Below are positions 3,382 to 42,434 of a stretch of DNA of 64,000 nucleotides, one piece after another. Origin of the DNA: Nitrospira sp. (GTDB lineage Bacteria; Nitrospirota; Nitrospiria; Nitrospirales; Nitrospiraceae). The notes under the pieces are model-generated. The model saw only the letters and a program-made list of their open reading frames with translations. It did no database searches and was not told where the DNA came from. Every line of letters begins with the position of its first letter. Position 1 is the stretch's first letter. The position numbers were made by a program, and so were the translations under genes. The DNA lies in the NCBI GenBank assembly GCA_005116835.1, contig SWDM01000019.1, positions 62,001 to 126,000 on the forward strand, written 5' to 3'.

Positions 3382-4356
3382 ATGGAAAAAATCCTTTCCC
3401 AAGACGAAATCGACGCGCTTCTCAGGGGGGTGAGCTCCGGAGAGGTTGAAGCCAAGCCGCAGGACGAAGCGGCCGCCGCAACGGGAGCGAAGCAGTTCGA
3501 TCTGTTCAATCAAGAGCGGATTATTCGCGGGCGCATGCCGACGCTCGAGCTCATCAACGATCGCTTCATTCGCCGCCAAGCGATTTCATGGGGCACGGCG
3601 CTTCATGACACCATCGATTTCGCTGTCGTCGGTACACAGATCACCAAATTTGGAGAATTCCTCAAGAAGGTTCCGATGCCGTCCTCGATGAACGTGTTTC
3701 ATATGGAGCCGCTTCGCAGTAACGGGCTCTTTGTGATGGATGCCTTTCTTGTCTACTTGATTGTGGATTACTTTTTTGGAGGCAAAGGGCAGACACACGT
3801 CAAGCCGGAAGGCCGGGACTTCACTCCCATCCAGTTGCGCGTCATTAAGAAACTGGTCAATCAAGTATTCCTCGATCTCGAGAAAGCTTGGGAAGCGCTG
3901 ATGCCGGTCAAGATCCAGCATGTGCGCTCGGAAAGTAATCCTCAGTTCGCCATGGTCGTCTCCGTATCCGAGATCGTCGCCGTCGTGACCCTGCAAGTTG
4001 TGATCGGCGAAACGGCGCGCGATCTGTTCGTCGTCTATCCCTACTCCATGCTCGAACCCATCAAAGAAAAACTCTATTCAGGATTGGTCTCGGACCATGT
4101 CGAGCAGGACGGAGGGTGGGCGGGCCGATTTCGCGACAGATTGCAAGACTGCCCGCTCAACCTCACCGTTCGACTCGGCACGGCCACCGTCACAGTGCGA
4201 GATGTGATGAGTTTTACGCCGGGTGACGTCGTTGTGCTGGATCAACGTCCGGGGGATCCCCTGGATTGTTATGTCGAGGGATACCTGAAGTTCCAAGGCA
4301 GCCCTGGCGTATTCAAGGGCAATCATGCTTGTCGAGTTTCAAAGGTCATTGCGTAA
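3382..4356 (+). CDS. fliM: Flagellar motor switch protein FliM
   Basis: 324 residues, normal length. The N-terminal segment ILSQDEIDALLRG is the CheY-P binding motif. The middle CheC-like domain includes DYFFGGKGQTHVKPEGRDFT, and the C-terminus is a SpoA domain that pairs with FliN. The protein forms the C-ring that sets rotation direction. It lies between fliL and fliN. Confidence 0.97.
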   Translation: MEKILSQDEIDALLRGVSSGEVEAKPQDEAAAATGAKQFDLFNQERIIRGRMPTLELINDRFIRRQAISWGTALHDTIDFAVVGTQITKFGEFLKKVPMPSSMNVFHMEPLRSNGLFVMDAFLVYLIVDYFFGGKGQTHVKPEGRDFTPIQLRVIKKLVNQVFLDLEKAWEALMPVKIQHVRSESNPQFAMVVSVSEIVAVVTLQVVIGETARDLFVVYPYSMLEPIKEKLYSGLVSDHVEQDGGWAGRFRDRLQDCPLNLTVRLGTATVTVRDVMSFTPGDVVVLDQRPGDPLDCYVEGYLKFQGSPGVFKGNHACRVSKVIA

Positions 4357-4764: not shown

Positions 4765-5169
4765 ATGGTCGATTTTTGGGACAGTTTCCTGCGGATGGCG
4801 TCCGCCCTTGCCCTTGTTCTGGCTCTTATTGCCGGATTGGTGGTCCTGGTTCGCCGATTCTCCGGCACGCGTTGGTTTGCCGGCGCACGCTTATTCTCGC
4901 CTGTGGCCGCGCCGATCGTCCAGGTGCTCGGCAGCGGGTACATCGGTCCGCGTAAAACCATCTCGCTCGTGTCGGTGGCAGGAGAGTATCTGATTGTCGG
5001 CGCGACTCCGACGGACCTGGTGTCGTTCGGACGGATCACCGATCAGGAACAGGTCAGGCTCATGTTGTCGAGGCTGGCTTCCGGCAGCCCGGCGGTCTCT
5101 CCGGGGCTTTCATCTGGGCTTCCTGTTCAGGCTTCTATGGAGAGGAAAGGCGGTCATGGCACTGCGTAA
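4765..5169 (+). CDS. fliO: Flagellar biosynthesis protein FliO
   Basis: 134 residues. One N-terminal membrane segment ([20 protein letters not shown]) is followed by a small cytoplasmic domain with the family pattern [20 protein letters not shown] and [14 protein letters not shown]. FliO helps assemble the FliP ring of the export gate. The family is poorly conserved, so position between fliN and fliP is part of the evidence. Its 3' end overlaps the fliP start by 14 bases, suggesting coupled translation. Confidence 0.88.
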
Positions 5170-22654: not shown

Positions 22655-22764
22655 CGATTATTGTGGCAGCAGTGCCATACATAATATTTCACTTGCGGTT
22701 TATGTACAAACCAAGTTTTTCCGCAGACTGTTAGTAGGTTCAAGAGGGATTGAGGGCATCTTTA

Positions 22765-22949
22765 AGCCCGCATTATTCATGACGGTTCGTCGCGAAATCG
22801 CTGAGCCGCGTCGTGAGAGCGGAGCCCTGAGGACCTGCAGAGCACTCGTGCAGTACGTTGAGGGTCTGATGGGCGAGCCTGCCGACCGAAGGTTTGTCGT
22901 AGCAGCGGATCGGCGATTGCAACAGAAGTGTCCATGAATCATGCGGGCT
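22765..22949. mobile_element. Family 1 inverted-repeat element (AGCCCGCATTATTCATGA), copy A
   Basis: 185 bases. The left end AGCCCGCATTATTCATGA and the right end read in reverse (AGCCCGCATGATTCATGGA) are near-perfect terminal inverted repeats. The interior, read in reverse, matches copies B-D (CTCAACGTACTGC core). It carries no coding potential of its own. Confidence 0.75.
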
Positions 22950-23345: not shown

Positions 23346-23962
23346 GGCATTTCCCTTTCCTTGATGAAGGCTATAGTGCCTCCATATGAAGCCGGTCTTT
23401 CCCGCCTATCAGGAATTCCCGGCATGTTGATGGGCTTGGTAGCCCCTCTGCGCAGCAAAGTTCAGTCAGTTCCCTACGTACTGATGCGATCCTCAAAGTG
23501 TGCGTATATGACTGTTCTCACCAGGGAGTTCTTCTGGAAAGTCAGGCGATTACCGCGAGTACGGTTGGCACTATTTGGTGATTGGCTCAGCAGGCTGCTC
23601 CTTGTTTTGGAATACTTGAATTGCCCATGCGACAGCCTATCTGTATCGTGGCCTAAGTCAAATGATTTCCAGGAAGCCTTTTCTGATAGGAGCCGGATGA
23701 ATCGAGAGGTTCAGGTCCGGTTCTTGGAGGGCTTGGCGGTGAGATTCCGCCTGGCCACTCAACTTGCGTGATATGTGATTCAGGCCTCTCCACTATTCTG
23801 GGAGCAAGAAGGGCACCTGGTCGCTCATTGGCCTCTCTTGATTCGAGTTCATGTAGCGGTTAAGGGATAAAAGCGATTGAGGTCACCTGTGTGATCTCAA
23901 ACAGGTTGGAGTAGGGGATGCGGGGTTTATTGTGAGGTGAAAGGTAGTAATGGCCAGAGGGA
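23346..23962. other. 617-base gap with a group II intron relic
   Basis: No convincing gene. The open frame at 23361-23771 has no ribosome site and its composition does not look like a protein gene. The notable element is a domain V-like hairpin at 23690-23723. The last 190 bases show nothing I can name. Confidence 0.4.
23690..23723 (+). ncRNA. Group II intron domain V-like hairpin (relic)
   Basis: Exactly 34 bases. GAGCCGGA pairs with TCCGGTTC, and TGAATC pairs with GGTTCA around a GAGA tetraloop, with a two-base bulge on the 3' side. This is the geometry of catalytic domain V. About 16 bases later GGCGG/CCGCC can form a domain VI-like stem. No intron-encoded protein is nearby, so it is a fragment. 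Confidence 0.5.
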
Positions 23963-28198: not shown

Positions 28199-28491
28199 TG
28201 GGGCTCCTTTCGTTGGGGTTGTCATGACTTGTGGGCGTTGCCCACGATTGGTGTTGTGTCGTTTTCGTTCATCATCTGCGAAGGATCGAAGCATCGGAGA
28301 CTCGGAGCGGAAGGGTGGATTTTCATGGTGCGAATCGTAGCGAGCATGCTCATTCTTTGCAAGTTATTTTTTCACCCCTCCATCCATCCATGCTTGGCTT
28401 ATAGATCTGCCACCGGCTGGTCGAGTGATAGCTATTGATTGTTGAAGAAGGGTAGTCCGGTGGAAGGGTTGACTCGTATTGATGTATGCCC
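28199..28491. other. Upstream region of the peroxidase gene
   Basis: About 290 bases with no gene recognised. Left boundary of the repeat-rich island that follows. Confidence 0.35.
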
Positions 28492-28785
28492 AGCTCGCAT
28501 TATTCATGAACGCTTCTGCTGCAATCGCGGATTCGCCGCTGCGACAAGCCTGGACGCGGTGGCCCGGCGTCCAGGCAGGCGGGCTCGCCGTTCGGTCGGT
28601 CAACATACCGGATTCGCCGCTGCGACAAGCCTGGACGCGGTGGCCCGGCGTCCAGGCAGGCGGGCTCGCCGTTCGGTCGGTCAACATACTGTTTCAAGTA
28701 TGCCTCCCTCCCTCGCGGCTCCGCGCGCCTGTCTCGCTTGGCGCCTGCGCGATTTCGCGACGAACTGTCATGAATAATGCGAGCT
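28492..28785. mobile_element. Family 1 inverted-repeat element, copy B, with internal duplication
   Basis: 294 bases. Ends AGCTCGCATTATTCATGA and TCATGAATAATGCGAGCT are perfect 18-bp inverted repeats. An internal block from GGATTCGCCGCTGCGACAAG recurs exactly 81 bases later (28528 and 28609) with essentially no differences, which makes this copy longer than the others. Confidence 0.75.
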
Positions 28786-28818
28786 TGAAGTTGACAGGAT
28801 CGGCAGACTGCTCGGAGA

Positions 28819-29760: not shown

Positions 29761-29978
29761 GTGCGGCGGAGACGGTTGCCCCATCTGCTCCAGCACTTCG
29801 GCACGACCACGCTACGTTGCTCATCTGCTCGATGCCGAAACTTGTTCCGTTCCTTGCTTCGCCTGAACGGAACTTCGAACATCGGCATCGCCAGCTGGAA
29901 GCTGGTCGCATCTGATCAACAAGTGTGGTGCCCGCGCCTTCGTGCAAGTCGCAGGTGGAGCAACCGTCTCCGCCGCAC
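29761..29978. mobile_element. Family 3 inverted-repeat element, copy 1 (left of toxin-antitoxin pair)
   Basis: 218 bases with ends GTGCGGCGGAGACGGTTGC and GCAACCGTCTCCGCCGCAC (perfect over 19 bases). The 202-base core 29769-29970 recurs at 30743-30944 in the same orientation with about ten differences counted by eye. Confidence 0.8.
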
Positions 29979-30742: not shown

Positions 30743-30944
30743 GAGACGGTTGCCCCATCTGCTCCGGCACTTCGGCGCGACCGCGCTACGTTGCTCATCT
30801 GCTCGATGCCGAAACTTGTTCCGTTCCTTGCTTCGCCTGAACGGAACTTCGAACATCGGCATCGCCAGCAAGAAGCTGGTCGCAACTGAGCAACAAGTGT
30901 GGTCCCCGCGCCTTCATGCAAGTCGCAGATGGAGCAACCGTCTC
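30743..30944. mobile_element. Family 3 inverted-repeat element, copy 2 (right of toxin-antitoxin pair)
   Basis: 202-base core from GAGACGGTTGCCCCATCTGC to GGAGCAACCGTCTC, about 95% identical by eye to copy 1. Its outer flanks (GCGCGG / CCGCGC) are less perfect than in copy 1 and have a four-base GAGA insertion. Starts about 40 bases after the antitoxin stop. Confidence 0.8.
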
Positions 30945-31054
30945 CGCGCTCGCCTGGAAAAGGCGGACTAAAACTAGCAGGGTGTTGAGAAACGATTTGG
31001 GACTCAAGGAAACGTTAGGTTCAAGTGGTCGCGAACGGTCACTCCACCGCTCCG

Positions 31055-31178: not shown

Positions 31179-31819
31179 CTAGTGATGTGCCAGGATATCG
31201 AACGTCACTGTGTCGGGCTTGCCGTCAAAATACTTGAGCAGGGCATCTTTGAAAACCTTGTTGTCGGTGGTCGCAGTCATGAACAGGGTCAGGCATGAGC
31301 GGAATTTCAGATTGTCCGGATAGCCGAAGATCTCTTCAGCGCTGCGCCCGTCCACGTTGAGGATAATCTGCGTACATTCTCTGAGCCTCTGACCTAAGAT
31401 GGGGTGTTGCAGATAGGCCTTAGCCTGCATTATTCATGAGCGTTTCTACTGCAACCGCCGATACGCCGCTGCGACAAGCGTGGCCGCATGCTTTGCGCGT
31501 CCAGCGGGCGGGCTCGCCCCTCGTAACCTCAACATACTGCTTCAAGTATGCCTCGGCTTCTCGGTGCTCCGCACGCCCGTCTCGCCTGGCGTCTTGGCGG
31601 TTTCGTTACGGACCGTCATGAATAATGCAGGCTGGTCTCGTCGAGGGAGGCAATGGCGAATGTCTGTGCCATTCCACTGTGACCAAGACCTTTGATCTGG
31701 GGAAAGATGTACCACATCCAGTGACTGAACTTTCTTCCGGCTCGTAGCTCATCAAGAACGGTGTCATAGACGCGCTCTCGCACGTCGAGAAAGCGGTGGA
31801 GATTGTACTCATCGGTCAT
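31179..31819 (-). pseudogene. DUF1810 protein gene split by a family 1 element
   Basis: The 5' part (31634-31819) encodes MTDEYNLHRFLDVRERVYDT through FAIASLDET; the 3' part (31179-31421) encodes KAYLQHPILGQRLRECTQII through TVTFDILAHH. Both are recognisable halves of a DUF1810 protein. Between them lies the 212-base element at 31422-31633. Removing exactly those bases joins codon ACC to codon AAG in frame and gives about 142 residues, the usual family size. The element brings an early stop, so the gene as it stands is broken. Confidence 0.85.
31422..31633. mobile_element. Family 1 inverted-repeat element, copy C, inside DUF1810
   Basis: 212 bases with perfect 18-bp ends AGCCTGCATTATTCATGA / TCATGAATAATGCAGGCT. 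The interior matches copy B (ACGCCGCTGCGACAAGCGTG; GCGGGCTCGCC; CAACATACTGCTTCAAGTAT). No obvious target duplication flanks it. Confidence 0.85.
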
Positions 31820-31977
31820 TGGCTGTGTCCATGACGCGATGTGGCTTCAGGCTTCGCCGCACTTTCCAAAATCCAGAATGTCCCGCTTTTCTTTCCCGTA
31901 GCGTCCTTCTAAGAATTCAGAATGTCCCAGTTTCCCCGGACAGTTTTAATTGCCTATTCGTTTGTTGCAGTTTTCGG

Positions 31978-32922
31978 TTAACTACGTGGTCTCCGTCCAA
32001 GGCGAATCCTCTTCTCAATCTCTACGGGGTCGAAATTCGGTGGTGTCGGTTTGTATTTCTTCGAGTCCTTTTGAAGGCCGTACCCCTTGAGTTGGTGGGT
32101 GCGCAACTGTTGGAGAGGAAGTCGCATAGTCAGAAATGTCTGGTTGTCGCCGCCCTTGATGCGAAGGGGGTTCAGCTTTTCAGTCTTTGAAGGACTGACT
32201 ACACGAGAGTCTCCGAACTGAGCGCTATTGACCTGAACCACGTAGCAGTGGAGGTCACGGGCGGCGGACTCTAGGATGTTGGAGAAGTAATTGACGTCCT
32301 TGTTGAACTCCGAGCAGACGATGAAATCTACCATGCCTTTGAAGAGACACCGGTCTTCCAGACTTGCCAACTCATAGCAGTTGTAGACGGCGAAGCTTGC
32401 ACCACGCCATTGAAAGAGCTGGTAGTCGCCCCTCGCCCTCAGGGGTGGGACTGAGAGGCGATTGTTGGTTAGCTGGAATTCCTCTTCAGGGGAGTAGTGT
32501 TTTTTTAGACGGCGCATTGGTGCACATTCCTTCAAGCCGTTCTTTCCACGAAAAGGCAGCGCCGCCAGCAGTTCGTTCAAGGCTCTGTTTCGAGCGTCTA
32601 TACGGTGCTCAAGCCCGCAGATGACTCCCACTTGATGGTCTTTCGCCCACTGAGTGATAAACGTGGCCCATCTATGCGGCACCGAAACTTCTGGGAGAAC
32701 CAGCAAGTCTACTCGTTGATCTGGGTGCCTGACGCCATGCTTCACCACATCGTTGAGCAATTCTGAAAGCACCTTCTTCCGCTGTCGCGAAACATTCGGT
32801 GTCCCCATGAAGCTGCCTTCGATGTTCTTTTCATCGACCATCAGATGCCCGACTGCGATCCGCAAGCCGCTATGTAGATCCGGGGTATGAGCACCAATCG
32901 AAATCTTGAGGAACGCCTTCAT
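31978..32922 (-). CDS. Nitrilase-superfamily protein paired with the reverse transcriptase
   Basis: 314 residues from ATG 32922 (ATG 32928 is possible; GAGGAGG spacing and the ATGA overlap with the RT stop favour 32922). Carbon-nitrogen hydrolase features: DLLVLPEVSVPHRW (likely catalytic Glu), a Lys in RRLKKHYSPEEE, and FAVYNCYELASLEDR (likely catalytic Cys). C-N hydrolase domains are fused or linked to reverse transcriptases of the UG/DRT defence group; here it is a separate, coupled gene. The true substrate is unknown, and in defence systems the domain may act on a nucleotide or small metabolite. Confidence 0.8.
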   Translation of the reverse strand: MKAFLKISIGAHTPDLHSGLRIAVGHLMVDEKNIEGSFMGTPNVSRQRKKVLSELLNDVVKHGVRHPDQRVDLLVLPEVSVPHRWATFITQWAKDHQVGVICGLEHRIDARNRALNELLAALPFRGKNGLKECAPMRRLKKHYSPEEEFQLTNNRLSVPPLRARGDYQLFQWRGASFAVYNCYELASLEDRCLFKGMVDFIVCSEFNKDVNYFSNILESAARDLHCYVVQVNSAQFGDSRVVSPSKTEKLNPLRIKGGDNQTFLTMRLPLQQLRTHQLKGYGLQKDSKKYKPTPPNFDPVEIEKRIRLGRRPRS

Positions 32923-34889
32923 TTCCATTCCTCCTCGCCGACGAGTTCACTGGTGACGCCGCCATGTTCCGTGCCATGGAACTGCCGATAGACGTCGTTC
33001 GCCCTGGTTACCGAATCCCTCTTGTTGGCCTTGGCGCAGCCTGAATTGACGAACCCAAGGCACTCGTCAAAATGCACGAAGCGAGGAGCGTTGACCGCCT
33101 TTTGAGGGTCGATAACTAGACCTAAAGCGCTCAATGGTGATGCAAGGTTCCCGTCGAAGCTGGTGTAGTTCAGCAGCGGTATTGCGACCAGGTGGTGTCG
33201 GATGAGATTCGACTGCCTCCAGAGTCGCGTCGACGAATCGTCGCGATCTCTAGTGGTTTCTGTCACTGCCAAGCTGAGTTCCATGCACAGATCAAGGTGG
33301 GCCGACAAAGTTCGCCGAAGGTGGCTGGAGACATTTGACCGAGTGCCCGCGGAGGTTTCATTCGGGGATGAGTATTTTATCTTCATACTCTCGCTGCGCA
33401 TCGCTTTGCTGAATCTTTCAGCGCCCTTCAGGTCTCCCGCTATCACTAAGAAGCTGATAACGCGTTCCCACATGTCCCAGTAGTCAATCGCGTTGCGGCC
33501 TTTGAAGAATCGGAACAGCTCATCTTTTAACACCCGATCGATGGAGCCTTCAGTCATCAAGTGAAGCTGAGTTTGCTTCCCAAGATGTATCGCAAGTTCC
33601 AAGCGATTTTCTGCGACGGCCTTCACGCTGCGGAACTTATTTGCCGAGCCGGCATACAGCAGGTCATAGGCAACCTGCGCCACGGGATTCTCATCACTAT
33701 CCACCGGTAAGAGCGCAAAGTTACTCGCGTTTTCCTCGATTTGTTTTTGAAACTTTTCGAGACCAGCGGTTGAATGCTCTGCGTCGAAGAACTGCAAAAT
33801 GCACTTCTTCTTCTGTAAGAAAAGACCCGGCTTGGAACGAAGTTCGAACCGCGCACTCTCCATGTCCCATTTGAGAATGTCTGCGCGTACGAGAACTCGC
33901 TCCATGAAGCTCATGATGGGGTCTGCTTCTTCCGGCGGTTCGGACATCGCTACGACTATGAGAATGTCATCAACATAGCGGCCGTAGTAAGCGGGCCTGA
34001 TAATGTTGAGGATGGCGTCGTCAAATTCCTTCAGATACCAGTTCGCGATTACCGGGGATGCGCTGAGCCCAATTGGCAGACACGTTGCCGTATCCGGTAA
34101 GTCAGGGTGCGTTATTGCGAGCATTGGGTTGAGTTTCTCACGGTAACTCTTGCAGATTTCTTCGATGCATCTGAAGAGGTTGCCGCCTCTAAGCTGACGC
34201 TCCATGAGAAAATCCTGAAGCGGCCCTGACGGCACAGGGCGCTTAATCTGCGTACGGAATACTTCCCAGTCGAGTTGGATGCGGTAATAATATTCCTGCA
34301 CGTCGAGCCCAACCACACAGACGCTTTGCCGATCATAGGAGAGGAGATCACGGGCTTTTTGAATGCCTGAGTCTCGCCACTTCGCATACAGCTCGTGATA
34401 CTTTTTGAAGAGATAGGCGGAGCGATCTTCGTCATTACCGACGAACTGGTGTAGGCGAGAGCCCGAGCAATGCTCGGAGAGCGTGTGGTCATACTCCGGT
34501 CCCTCAATCATCAGCCATAACACCGACAGCAGGTGCAACTCAATCGGACCGTCGAACACGTAGTTCACCTTTGTCACGCGATGCAAGGGCGCACTCGTGA
34601 CATTGGACACGAACGAACCCTGTCCCTCCTCCGGCTTCTTAGGTCCTTCTACACCTTTTGGAATGACATCGAAGCGAATGTCCTCAAGCCACATTTTGAA
34701 CTGGGCAGTTTCGTGAGGAGTTTTCGATTTTGAGACCTTTCCGACAGCCTGGAGTCGTTCTTCGAAGTTTTCTTCGCACTCAAACTCAGCCAAGCGCCGT
34801 CGCAGCGTGAGTGGATGCTTCTCGAAGTAAACCATCTGTTTCAGTTTTTTGTAGGCAACTTTGACGAGGTCATTGAGGTCGAGAATCAT
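32919..34889 (-). CDS. Reverse transcriptase of the UG/DRT (defence-associated) type
   Basis: 656 residues from ATG 34889 (AAGGG upstream). RT motifs in order: VVGLDVQEYYYRI (motif A, Asp196), LPIGLSASPVIANWYL (motif B, about 271-286), YGRYVDDILIVV (motif C, YVDD 305-308). The palm begins only after about 170 residues and is followed by about 340 residues with no recognisable maturase, thumb-X or endonuclease domain, unlike group II intron or retron enzymes. This architecture and the coupled nitrilase gene fit the 'unknown group' RTs that act in phage defence (DRT). Base composition looks more AT-rich than its neighbours. Confidence 0.85.
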   Translation of the reverse strand: MILDLNDLVKVAYKKLKQMVYFEKHPLTLRRRLAEFECEENFEERLQAVGKVSKSKTPHETAQFKMWLEDIRFDVIPKGVEGPKKPEEGQGSFVSNVTSAPLHRVTKVNYVFDGPIELHLLSVLWLMIEGPEYDHTLSEHCSGSRLHQFVGNDEDRSAYLFKKYHELYAKWRDSGIQKARDLLSYDRQSVCVVGLDVQEYYYRIQLDWEVFRTQIKRPVPSGPLQDFLMERQLRGGNLFRCIEEICKSYREKLNPMLAITHPDLPDTATCLPIGLSASPVIANWYLKEFDDAILNIIRPAYYGRYVDDILIVVAMSEPPEEADPIMSFMERVLVRADILKWDMESARFELRSKPGLFLQKKKCILQFFDAEHSTAGLEKFQKQIEENASNFALLPVDSDENPVAQVAYDLLYAGSANKFRSVKAVAENRLELAIHLGKQTQLHLMTEGSIDRVLKDELFRFFKGRNAIDYWDMWERVISFLVIAGDLKGAERFSKAMRSESMKIKYSSPNETSAGTRSNVSSHLRRTLSAHLDLCMELSLAVTETTRDRDDSSTRLWRQSNLIRHHLVAIPLLNYTSFDGNLASPLSALGLVIDPQKAVNAPRFVHFDECLGFVNSGCAKANKRDSVTRANDVYRQFHGTEHGGVTSELVGEEEWK

Positions 34890-34917
34890 GGTTCGAATTC
34901 CCTTGTTTCGATTTCTT

Positions 34918-35199
34918 TTAGCGGATCGTCGACGACGTGATGGTTGGTGGCACTGGAATGTTCCCAACAAAACCGATGTAGATTTCAGGTTGCGCAGAGA
35001 ACGCGACCGACTTCCACAGATGCTGCTGCAATCGCGGACTTCGAAGGAACATTACCAAGAACTCAGATGACATCAGTTCCGGGCGTGGCCTAAGAATTGA
35101 CACGCTTCGATGAATTTGAATTGGGGCAGACATCCCGTTCACTGAGCCCCTTCTTATAGAGTTCCGGCATTTACAAAAATAACAGTCAACTAAAGCCAT
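34918..35199 (-). pseudogene. Fragment resembling a type I restriction specificity subunit (HsdS)
   Basis: A 93-codon frame. SVSILRPRPELMSSEFLVMF followed by LRSPRLQQHLWKSVAFSAQP and EIYIGFVGNIPVPPT matches the end of an HsdS target-recognition domain (a 'LxSP...GSAQP.I....I...PVPPL' pattern). A full HsdS is about 400 residues and has two such domains; hsdR and hsdM are absent. It lies 28 bases upstream of the RT start on the same strand, a remnant of an earlier defence locus. Recognition is by pattern only. Confidence 0.5.
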
Positions 35200-35663
35200 G
35201 GGAGAGCAGAATACGCTTTCCTCATCAATAAATCATGCCCCCCCATAAGGATGCCTCATCGGAAGTGCTGAGTTCTGAGTCCTGAGCGAGTAGGGCGGGA
35301 CGTGACACGCTGAGCAGGTCTTCCGATTCTCTATGCCTCGCTTTATGGATGGGGGCTGATTGATCTTCCACTGCGCGCGTCCAACGATATCGTGCCCCCT
35401 CCAAGCTCACTTGTTTCGCTCTTCAAAGGGCGGGCTGGTCGATCCTCGATTGCGCGCGTCGAACGAGCACATTCTGATCGTGGGCGTTCCGCGAGCAGGA
35501 GGACGCCCAGGCTACCCTTCTCCTCCCACGCGTTGCGCGAGCACAGAAGATCATCAGGCTCCATCCAGCCCTCTGTTCTGCGAGCAAGGAGGCACCTGGC
35601 CGCTCCCCACCTGGCGGGGAATACCGAAGGAAAGTTGAGGGGGAGCACATAAGCCAATGGATG
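35200..35663. repeat. Repeat-derived gap between the RT locus and the lon duplicate
   Basis: 464 bases without a gene. TTGCGCGCGTC and TGCGCGCGTCC words recur at about 100-base spacing (near 35370 and 35450). GCGTTGCGCGAGCACAGAAG continuing into ATCATCAG (about 35530-35557) also occurs at 19088-19115. This is the same dispersed repeat seen after flgI. Confidence 0.5.
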
Positions 35664-35872
35664 AGGCCCCGGCTTTCAGCCGGGCCCTCTTGAGTTTACG
35701 AAGCGGTGGAAGTCGCGAGTGGTTCGTCCCGCTCTGCTCTCATCTGTGCCGGTGCATCCTGATTGAATGCCGCCGGGAGCACTTCTTCGATCCGTTCGGC
35801 GAGGATGAAGGTCAGCTCGTTCCGTACTTCCTGCGGCACCTCTTTCAGGTCCTTCTCGTTCGCTTTCGGCAG
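35664..35872 (-). pseudogene. Duplicated 3' end of lon (58 codons, stop and terminator)
   Basis: The minus strand reads [20 protein letters not shown] through PLATSTAS and a TAA stop (35872-35696), then the same GGCCCCGG hairpin found after lon. It repeats lon 36599-36806 with a few changes (DAPAQMRAERDEP against DTPAPARAERDEP). The frame is intact but has no start. It begins one base after the stop of the adjacent antitoxin gene. Confidence 0.88.
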
Positions 35873-35873
35873 A

Positions 35874-36185
35874 TTAGGCTGCCGCTCTCTTCACTCGTAT
35901 CTCGGCGCGATGACCGGTCGCGGCGAGCACTCGAATGAGCACATCCGTTGAGACGCCGTGCGTATTTCCATTCGCGATCGCGGTCACCCTGGTTCTCGAC
36001 GTGCCGGCCTTTTTCGCAATCTCAGCATGGGTGAACTGTCCTGCTTGAATAATTTTCGCCAGTGCGACGGTGAGCTCTGAACGAAATTCCATCTCCGCCG
36101 TGTCGGCCACCGACAACCCCAGGGCCCGCCCAAGATCTTCAGCTGTCCGAACCGTGACGGGTTTACGGGTTTTAGATGTAGTCAT
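35874..36185 (-). CDS. XRE-family antitoxin
   Basis: 103 residues. Helix-turn-helix FTHAEIAKKAGTSRTRVTAI then ANGNTHGVSTDVLIRVLAAT, in the HigA-like group; N-terminal half carries the toxin-binding part (EDLGRALGLSVADTAEMEFR). The start overlaps the toxin end by 14 bases. It ends at the junction with the duplicated lon end, so it gains that gene's terminator. Confidence 0.85.
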   Translation of the reverse strand: MTTSKTRKPVTVRTAEDLGRALGLSVADTAEMEFRSELTVALAKIIQAGQFTHAEIAKKAGTSRTRVTAIANGNTHGVSTDVLIRVLAATGHRAEIRVKRAAA

Positions 36186-36505
36186 GCGTGATCTCCTTCA
36201 GTCTTTGTTGAGCCACAGTGATTTCATGCGCGGGAGTTTTCTGCGTCTTTTTTTGAGAGCCGTGAAACACCACGATTGTGTCAGCTAGTTTGACAAAGTA
36301 GAACACTCGGACAGTTGTCGTTGTGCTCCGTACTCTGAGTTCGTGCACTCCTGATGTCACCGAGGGCATGGGCCTGCTGAGCGGGAGGCCCAAGGGGATA
36401 CCTTTCTGAATATCACGGAGCGCTTCACCGATTTTCCGTTTGAGCGACGAAGACTGGTCACGAAAGAACGCCAGGGCCTTGGGGATAAAACGTGATCGAC
36501 CTCAC
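36172..36505 (-). pseudogene. RelE-like toxin (Gp49/HigB family), apparently frameshifted
   Basis: From codon ATC near 36486 the frame reads IPKALAFFRDQSSSLKRKIG, GLPLSRPMPSVTSGVHELRV, TTTTVRVFYFVKLADTIVVF and HGSQKKTQKTPAHEITVAQQ: a clear HigB/Gp49-type toxin with the FxKKTQKTP tail. No start codon exists in this frame before it. The missing N-terminus (VRSITF from GTG 36505) is in another frame, joined by a run of four T (36487-36490 on the + strand as A). Deleting one base makes a complete gene of about 110 residues. Either a null mutation or a sequencing error. Confidence 0.65.
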
Positions 36506-36598
36506 GGGGTCAGTGTGTCTCAAAATTAGGACATACGCAAGAGGCTGCAATGGTCTGGGAGATGGGTATTCTCTAACGGAAGGATTGAGGAAATAGGC

Positions 36599-36626
36599 AG
36601 GCCCCGGCGGTGAGCCGGGGCCTCTT
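36599..36626 (-). terminator. Terminator of lon
   Basis: GGCCCCGGC and GCCGGGGCC form a perfect 9-bp stem around a five-base loop just after the lon stop. A diverged copy with the same position relative to a lon tail lies at 35664-35690. Confidence 0.7.
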
Positions 36627-36630
36627 GAGT

Positions 36631-39027
<2,397 letters not shown>

Positions 39028-42304: not shown

Positions 42305-42434
42305 GTGCGGCGGGCTCGCCCCTCGGACCCTCCACGTACTGCGCGAGTACGCTTTGGGTCCTCACGGCTCTGCGCGCAGGTCTCACAACGCGACTCAGCG
42401 ATTTCGCGACGAACCATCATGAATAATGCGGGCT
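42305..42434. mobile_element. Family 1 inverted-repeat element, copy D (left end missing)
   Basis: The right end GCGATTTCGCGACGAACCAT then CATGAATAATGCGGGCT is intact, and the interior GCGGGCTCGCCCCTCGGACC and CACGTACTGCGCGAGTACG match copies A-C. Homology stops at about 42305; the left terminal repeat is gone. Confidence 0.7.

Follow-up and report, generated by a model that had tools for sequence, protein, structure and literature searches.

A candidate two-gene UG5-small reverse transcriptase–nitrilase defence system in Nitrospira and its relatives in restriction operons

Introduction

The class 3 systems DRT1, DRT5S and DRT5L carry out template-free, protein-primed DNA synthesis (PMC13275509). 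In DRT1, this synthesis sets up a dormant complex with the nitrilase at its centre, and abortive infection requires both active sites (PMC13275509). The trigger of class 3 DRTs and the target of the nitrilase were both left open by the 2026 DRT1 study. We take DRT5S and DRT5L to be UG5 small and UG5 large, respectively. The two-gene form of such a system is already listed in PADLOC, as UG5_small plus RTasNitrilase.

A different kind of system is represented by prrC, which lies within a type IC restriction operon and becomes active when a phage inhibitor blocks restriction (PMC3874165, PMC12707154). Here, a reverse transcriptase (RT) gene and a nitrilase gene from Nitrospira sp. are compared with these systems. 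The pair lies in the window, the whole stretch of 64,000 nucleotides that was analysed. As the PADLOC entry shows, its two-gene form is less novel than the original prediction for this locus had implied.

The RT–nitrilase pair

The pair consists of two overlapping genes:

32919..34889, minus strand: UG5-small type RT, 656 aa, with YVDD (D307/D308); PDLC03781, 1072.8 bits
31978..32922, minus strand: nitrilase-superfamily gene associated with the RT, encoding 314 aa when read from the conserved ATG, with the catalytic tetrad and a C-terminal K291-x-x-P294-x-x-F297

Both frames are intact at these coordinates and the RT is of the UG5-small class, which bears out the original prediction of a coupled two-gene module. 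The RT motifs that it had named, motif A (LDVQEYYY), motif B (LPIGLSASPVIANWYL) and motif C (YVDD), are all found in the intact RT frame. An alignment with up to 16 relatives shows full or almost full conservation of L271, P272, I273, G274, N283-W284-Y285 and D307-D308, with D307/D308 among the invariant residues. The PADLOC profile RT_UG5_small (PDLC03781) covers RT residues 4–652 of 656. Two RT_UG5-nitrilase models follow with 408 and 292 bits, and any other RT model scores at most 51 bits; a class check against the PADLOC profiles thus places UG5_small far above the non-UG5 models. NCBIfam and Pfam returned just weak, general RT and CN_hydrolase matches for the two proteins.

The structural model of the RT (pLDDT 83) has an RT fold plus a helical C-terminal half. 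Its fold matches group II, DGR, DRT2, DRT9 and AbiA enzymes with Z scores of about 16–18 (top 17.7). Foldseek and VIA-align, run on a structure library older than the DRT1 structure 9YFD, retrieved just the general RT fold.

The nitrilase start had been placed at ATG 32928, overlapping the RT stop. The overlap stands, but what relatives conserve as the start is the second ATG, at 32922, which forms an ATGA overlap with the RT stop, a junction common to most of them; ATG 32928 lies two codons upstream and abuts the ribosome-binding site. The catalytic residues once numbered E80, K and C184 are likewise retained and become E78, K140 and C182 when counted from ATG 32922. With E147 they form a tetrad that is invariant in 22 relatives, fused proteins included. 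The nitrilase model (pLDDT 90.6) has a nitrilase fold, matching amidases and nitrilases at E 1e-12.

The nitrilase scores 120 bits against the RTasNitrilase profile and 320 bits against the C-terminal part of RT_UG5-nitrilase (profile positions 636–896). As the RT match to the latter profile ends at position 615, the break between the two genes coincides exactly with the domain boundary of the fused protein. When solved structures were searched with a profile of UG5 nitrilases, the single match was DRT1 (9YFD; E 9.8e-15), and this match includes the DRT1 C-terminus. Residues K291 and P294 of the UG5 nitrilase, both invariant, and F297, which is conserved, align with DRT1 K1219, P1222 and F1225. 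In DRT1, the mutation K1219A weakens defence as much as deleting the C-terminus does (PMC13275509). By its sequence, the window pair is classed as a class 3 (nitrilase-linked) UG/DRT system of the UG5-small type in split form.

Relatives and origin of the split form

A scan of 84,980 species genomes yielded nine loci related to the pair, and the remaining loci were obtained from viral contigs and from broader sampling of genomes. Relatives with 77–80% identity in the RT and 84–89% in the nitrilase are found in Verrucomicrobia, Lentisphaerae, Sideroxydans and Pseudomonas. The pair is present in none of 24 congeners, and one other genome of 296 sampled in the phylum carries it. Such relatives in other taxa, together with this scarcity nearby, point to horizontal transfer. 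A search of phage records found no relatives of the pair, and a plasmid search gave two remote, partial matches only.

Pairwise dN/dS for the window pair is 0.10–0.14 for the RT and 0.06–0.10 for the nitrilase. Such strong purifying selection argues that the two-gene arrangement is not a chance observation. Furthermore, a nitrilase, separate or fused, accompanies the RT at every UG5 locus among those examined, and RT and nitrilase distances are correlated (Mantel r 0.97, 0/5000 permutations). The conserved co-occurrence on which the original prediction had been made to depend is therefore observed. Its second check, the RT tree, places the split pairs within the UG5-nitrilase proteins and not outside the UG/DRT groups.

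A tree built from 25 loci unites all of its 12 split pairs in a single clade (support 100/99), which is nested among fused UG5-nitrilase proteins; a 13th split-pair locus was found outside this tree. The split form is likely, though not certain, to have arisen by fission rather than fusion, the outgroup branch being long. Two loci show irregular genes. The fused UG5 gene of L088 is open for 1012 codons apart from a lone in-frame TGA (4345–4347) close to where the RT and nitrilase parts meet. L084 (4665–5993) encodes a 442-aa protein in which a UG5 N-terminus is joined to a partial nitrilase, without the RT core or the region of the first nitrilase glutamate, through a deletion or an assembly artefact.

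Restriction operons as a setting of UG5 genes

The setting of the relatives is the unexpected part of the analysis and lies beyond the original prediction. In six of the 13 split-pair loci (L002, L003, L005, L007, L008 and L081), the pair is part of a type I restriction-modification operon, where it is flanked by hsdS and hsdR in the order hsdM-hsdS-[RT-nitrilase]-hsdR. In all six, the end of hsdS and the start of the RT gene share 4 nt, and in L081 the hsdM, hsdS, RT, nitrilase and hsdR genes are joined by 4-nt overlaps throughout. At a seventh locus, L063, the pair comes after a type III methyltransferase (1438 bits). Fused UG5 genes are found near hsdS (L085, L087), near a type IIG-like gene (L082) and downstream of the N-terminal half of PglX (L083). 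In L086 (514–7225), the fused gene lies between the halves of a PglX-like methyltransferase, the N half stopping at profile position 619 and the C half beginning at 638 (of 1205). Outside restriction operons, the split pair of L096 is stand-alone, that of L015 has TIR-like neighbours, and no restriction genes are in view around the pair in L080 and L004. No description of a UG5 pair in a restriction operon was found in the accessible literature, which does not extend to the classification paper that defines UG5-small.

Comparison of the operons indicates that the pair moves as a unit, since the histories of backbone and cassette disagree. L081 and L002 share 81–82% identity in HsdM/HsdR and just 53/67% in RT/nitrilase; between L003 and L002, the values are 68–71% and 83/91%. 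The position between hsdS and hsdR is a cargo slot, as it is empty in same-backbone operons L117 and L118, where hsdS is joined straight to hsdR, and is filled in L116 by DUF4433, macro-domain, AAA and DUF4276 genes. A third gene, for a predicted pPIWI-associating nuclease, lies between nitrilase and hsdR in L002 (7940–9208) and L007 (7237–8496), and L003 has a Schlafen/AlbA_2 protein in its place.

That the slot also takes unrelated cargo favours a stand-alone DRT with no functional tie to restriction, for which the operon would merely offer mobile defence cargo a convenient place to insert. The window pair, which persists under purifying selection with neither hsdM nor hsdR, fits the same explanation. 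Less easily accommodated is the fact that UG5 genes adjoin several kinds of DNA-modification gene, usually with translational coupling. Taken together, we consider this explanation to be nearly an even call.

Gene order is what suggests a further possibility, that the pair may act as a PrrC-like back-up guard within operons for restriction or BREX. It would be held silent by the restriction complex until phage inhibition of restriction released it to cause abortive infection, and the window copy would be a detached guard. The place of the pair in the six type I operons and behind the type III methyltransferase, the fused genes near hsdS or adjoining PglX and type IIG-like genes, the discordant histories of hsdM/hsdR and cassette, and the empty or differently filled slots all speak for such a role; prrC likewise sits inside a restriction operon and responds to a restriction inhibitor. 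Against it stand the stand-alone pair of L096 and the three loci with no restriction genes in view (L015, L080 and L004). DRT1 works without a restriction system, and a shared location could reflect mere clustering or shared mobility. We regard a guard role as possible but somewhat doubtful. It would add a trigger to a DRT1-like explanation and does not contradict it.

In its general form, which we put forward still more tentatively, UG5 modules would be guards plugged in behind the methyltransferase or specificity genes of type I, III, IIG and BREX systems. They would stay silent while the machine works and fire once a phage disables it, and the window would hold a detached guard with an operon scar. 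Were this so, non-templated DNA synthesis would be part of an anti-restriction sensor. The operon setting offers a concrete candidate, inhibition of restriction, for the trigger of class 3 DRTs.

A detached copy in the window

Upstream of the window pair lie two traces of hsdS:

34918..35199, minus strand: HsdS-like remnant (end of the target-recognition domain), 93-aa open frame
34886..34936, minus strand: hsdS 3'-end relic in another frame, VVDDPLKEIETREFEP and stop; its TGA overlaps the RT ATG, as does intact hsdS in relatives

The remnant, noticed in the original prediction, is confirmed by 13 PADLOC models (12 Specificity_I and one mad5; best E 3.5e-4), and a Pfam search of it gave no match. 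The relic tail comprises 16 codons, and its last 48 nt match the 3' end of hsdS at 71% of positions in L002 (p 5e-5) and at 69% in L007 (0/20000). Neither hsdM nor hsdR is present within the 64-kb window. A search of the same genome for the lost hsdM recovered just an unrelated one, 26% identical and on another contig.

These sequences identify the remnant as what is left of a restriction operon like those in which relatives carry the pair, and not as mere island debris. The window pair has, on this evidence, become detached from its operon, leaving an hsdS stub. The PrrC-type feature of a gene embedded in a restriction operon is accordingly seen in six relatives and is absent from the window copy, which has the hsdS relic only. 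In L006 (Pseudomonas aestuarii), a scar at 4930–5003 lies directly before the RT, where LEQAQLNWL, resembling the start of HsdM, runs into SEDTEA and a stop, resembling the end of HsdS; this suggests that restriction genes were deleted beside the pair.

The pair might then be a decaying remnant, no longer functional in this genome after loss of the operon. hsdM and hsdR have gone, the hsdS frame is broken, and no convincing promoter was found upstream of the pair. The copy may have lost the promoter and partners that it once had. Decay is nevertheless unlikely, as neither frame is disrupted, every catalytic residue and the ATGA coupling are preserved, and the pairwise dN/dS of the window pair resembles that of operon-borne copies.

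The island and the lon/DUF1810 site

The pair and the relic form a cargo unit between two conserved edges:

~31831..35340, no strand: cargo unit of pair and hsdS relic, with DUF1810 on one side of the insertion and the lon 3' flank on the other
36631..39027, minus strand: lon protease gene, which marks one conserved edge of the hotspot
31179..31819, minus strand: DUF1810 gene, the other edge, interrupted by a 212-bp inverted-repeat element

DUF1810 is intact in congeners L111 and L113. The lon/DUF1810 site holds complete Avs3a (3095 bits) and Avs3b genes in L113 (6374–13355) and other cargo in L111 and L112; in L114 and L115, lon adjoins msrB. The site is a defence hotspot of the genus.

The surrounding region is the repeat-rich island with toxin–antitoxin pairs that had been predicted, with RelE/HTH and Gp49/HTH_37 pairs identified by Pfam and many repeats. 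The element within DUF1810 (31422–31633) is MITE-like, with 46-nt inverted ends, and has related copies at 28490–28787 (with an 81-bp internal tandem duplication), 22764–22949 and 42309–42434. The RelE/HTH toxin–antitoxin-like pair is flanked by direct repeats of 205 nt (29769–29973 and 30743–30947; 95%). The Gp49/HTH_37 toxin–antitoxin-like pair (35874–36480) lies between two copies of the lon 3' end (35664–36807; ~89% identical over 209 bp), and looks as if it had been inserted with duplication of the lon end.

As had been claimed, the pair has no maturase or intron features: Rfam shows none in it, its only find being the tail of a group II intron at a distance of 8 kb. This domain V match (23688–23763, Rfam, 51.9 bits), near which there is no maturase-like gene of at least 200 aa, is probably an intron relic. 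A further reading, in which the RT is a group II intron, retron or DGR enzyme and its neighbour a metabolic nitrilase that has nothing to do with it, is so improbable that we count it as already refuted, because the group II and DGR fold matches (Z 16–18) show the common RT fold only, the UG5 profile scores more than ten times higher than the group II (23 bits) and retron (29.5 bits) models, which fall far under their cut-offs in a profile test that included no DGR model, and the RT is strictly co-inherited with the nitrilase.

Proposed mechanism

The reading that we prefer is that the window pair is a horizontally acquired UG5-small defence system, and that it probably works by a DRT1-like mechanism divided between two chains. 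This is suggested by the family, the tetrad, the C-terminal lid, a disordered loop with serines nearby, and the lack of room for an RNA gene in L081. In the RT model, residues 389–426, right behind the palm, are disordered; the DRT1 structure is unresolved at 382–478, around the priming serine S402 (PMC13275509). Residues S373 and S389 are unchanged across 16 UG5 RTs and lie near the place that would correspond to the DRT1 priming serine, a placement made without direct alignment. According to the DRT1 study, conservation of the priming serine does not extend to other class 3 DRTs (PMC13275509). A dedicated RNA gene between the parts was considered and rejected, given that Rfam has no match in the pair and the genes of L081 overlap. 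The conserved upstream sequence among close relatives is hsdS coding sequence. An RNA could still be encoded at a greater distance.

From its sequence, we infer that the window copy would defend against phage. By analogy with DRT1, we also infer the DNA synthesis, two-chain assembly, trigger and killing. The RT would make untemplated, protein-primed ssDNA that remains attached to the RT itself. The DNA-bearing RT and the separate nitrilase would then form a poised complex, similar to that of RT and nitrilase within the one chain of DRT1. Phage infection would release the nitrilase from this complex, and the freed enzyme would hydrolyse an essential metabolite, killing or arresting the infected cell.

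Comparison with known systems

PrrC/EcoprrI and RloC resemble the UG5 relatives in that a candidate suicide effector is located in a type I restriction operon; they differ in chemistry, being tRNA nucleases unrelated to the nitrilase. The listed UG5-small RT with RTasNitrilase (PDLC03781, PDLC03804) has the same full-length RT sub-family and a separate nitrilase gene, and the window copy differs from it by its hsdS relic. Fused UG5-nitrilase proteins (PDLC03780; L009, L010, L016 and L090) have the same two parts in the same order, but in one chain of 960–1190 aa instead of two genes; the nested position of the split clade is consistent with one fission.

DRT1/UG1 (9YFD) shares with the window pair the RT and nitrilase, the tetrad, the C-terminal K-x-x-P-x-x-F lid and the disordered loop after the palm. 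However, DRT1 is a single chain of 1229 aa, whereas the window has two genes, and sequence similarity between them is remote only. As a naturally divided version, the window pair allows RT and effector to be expressed, purified and mutated independently of each other.
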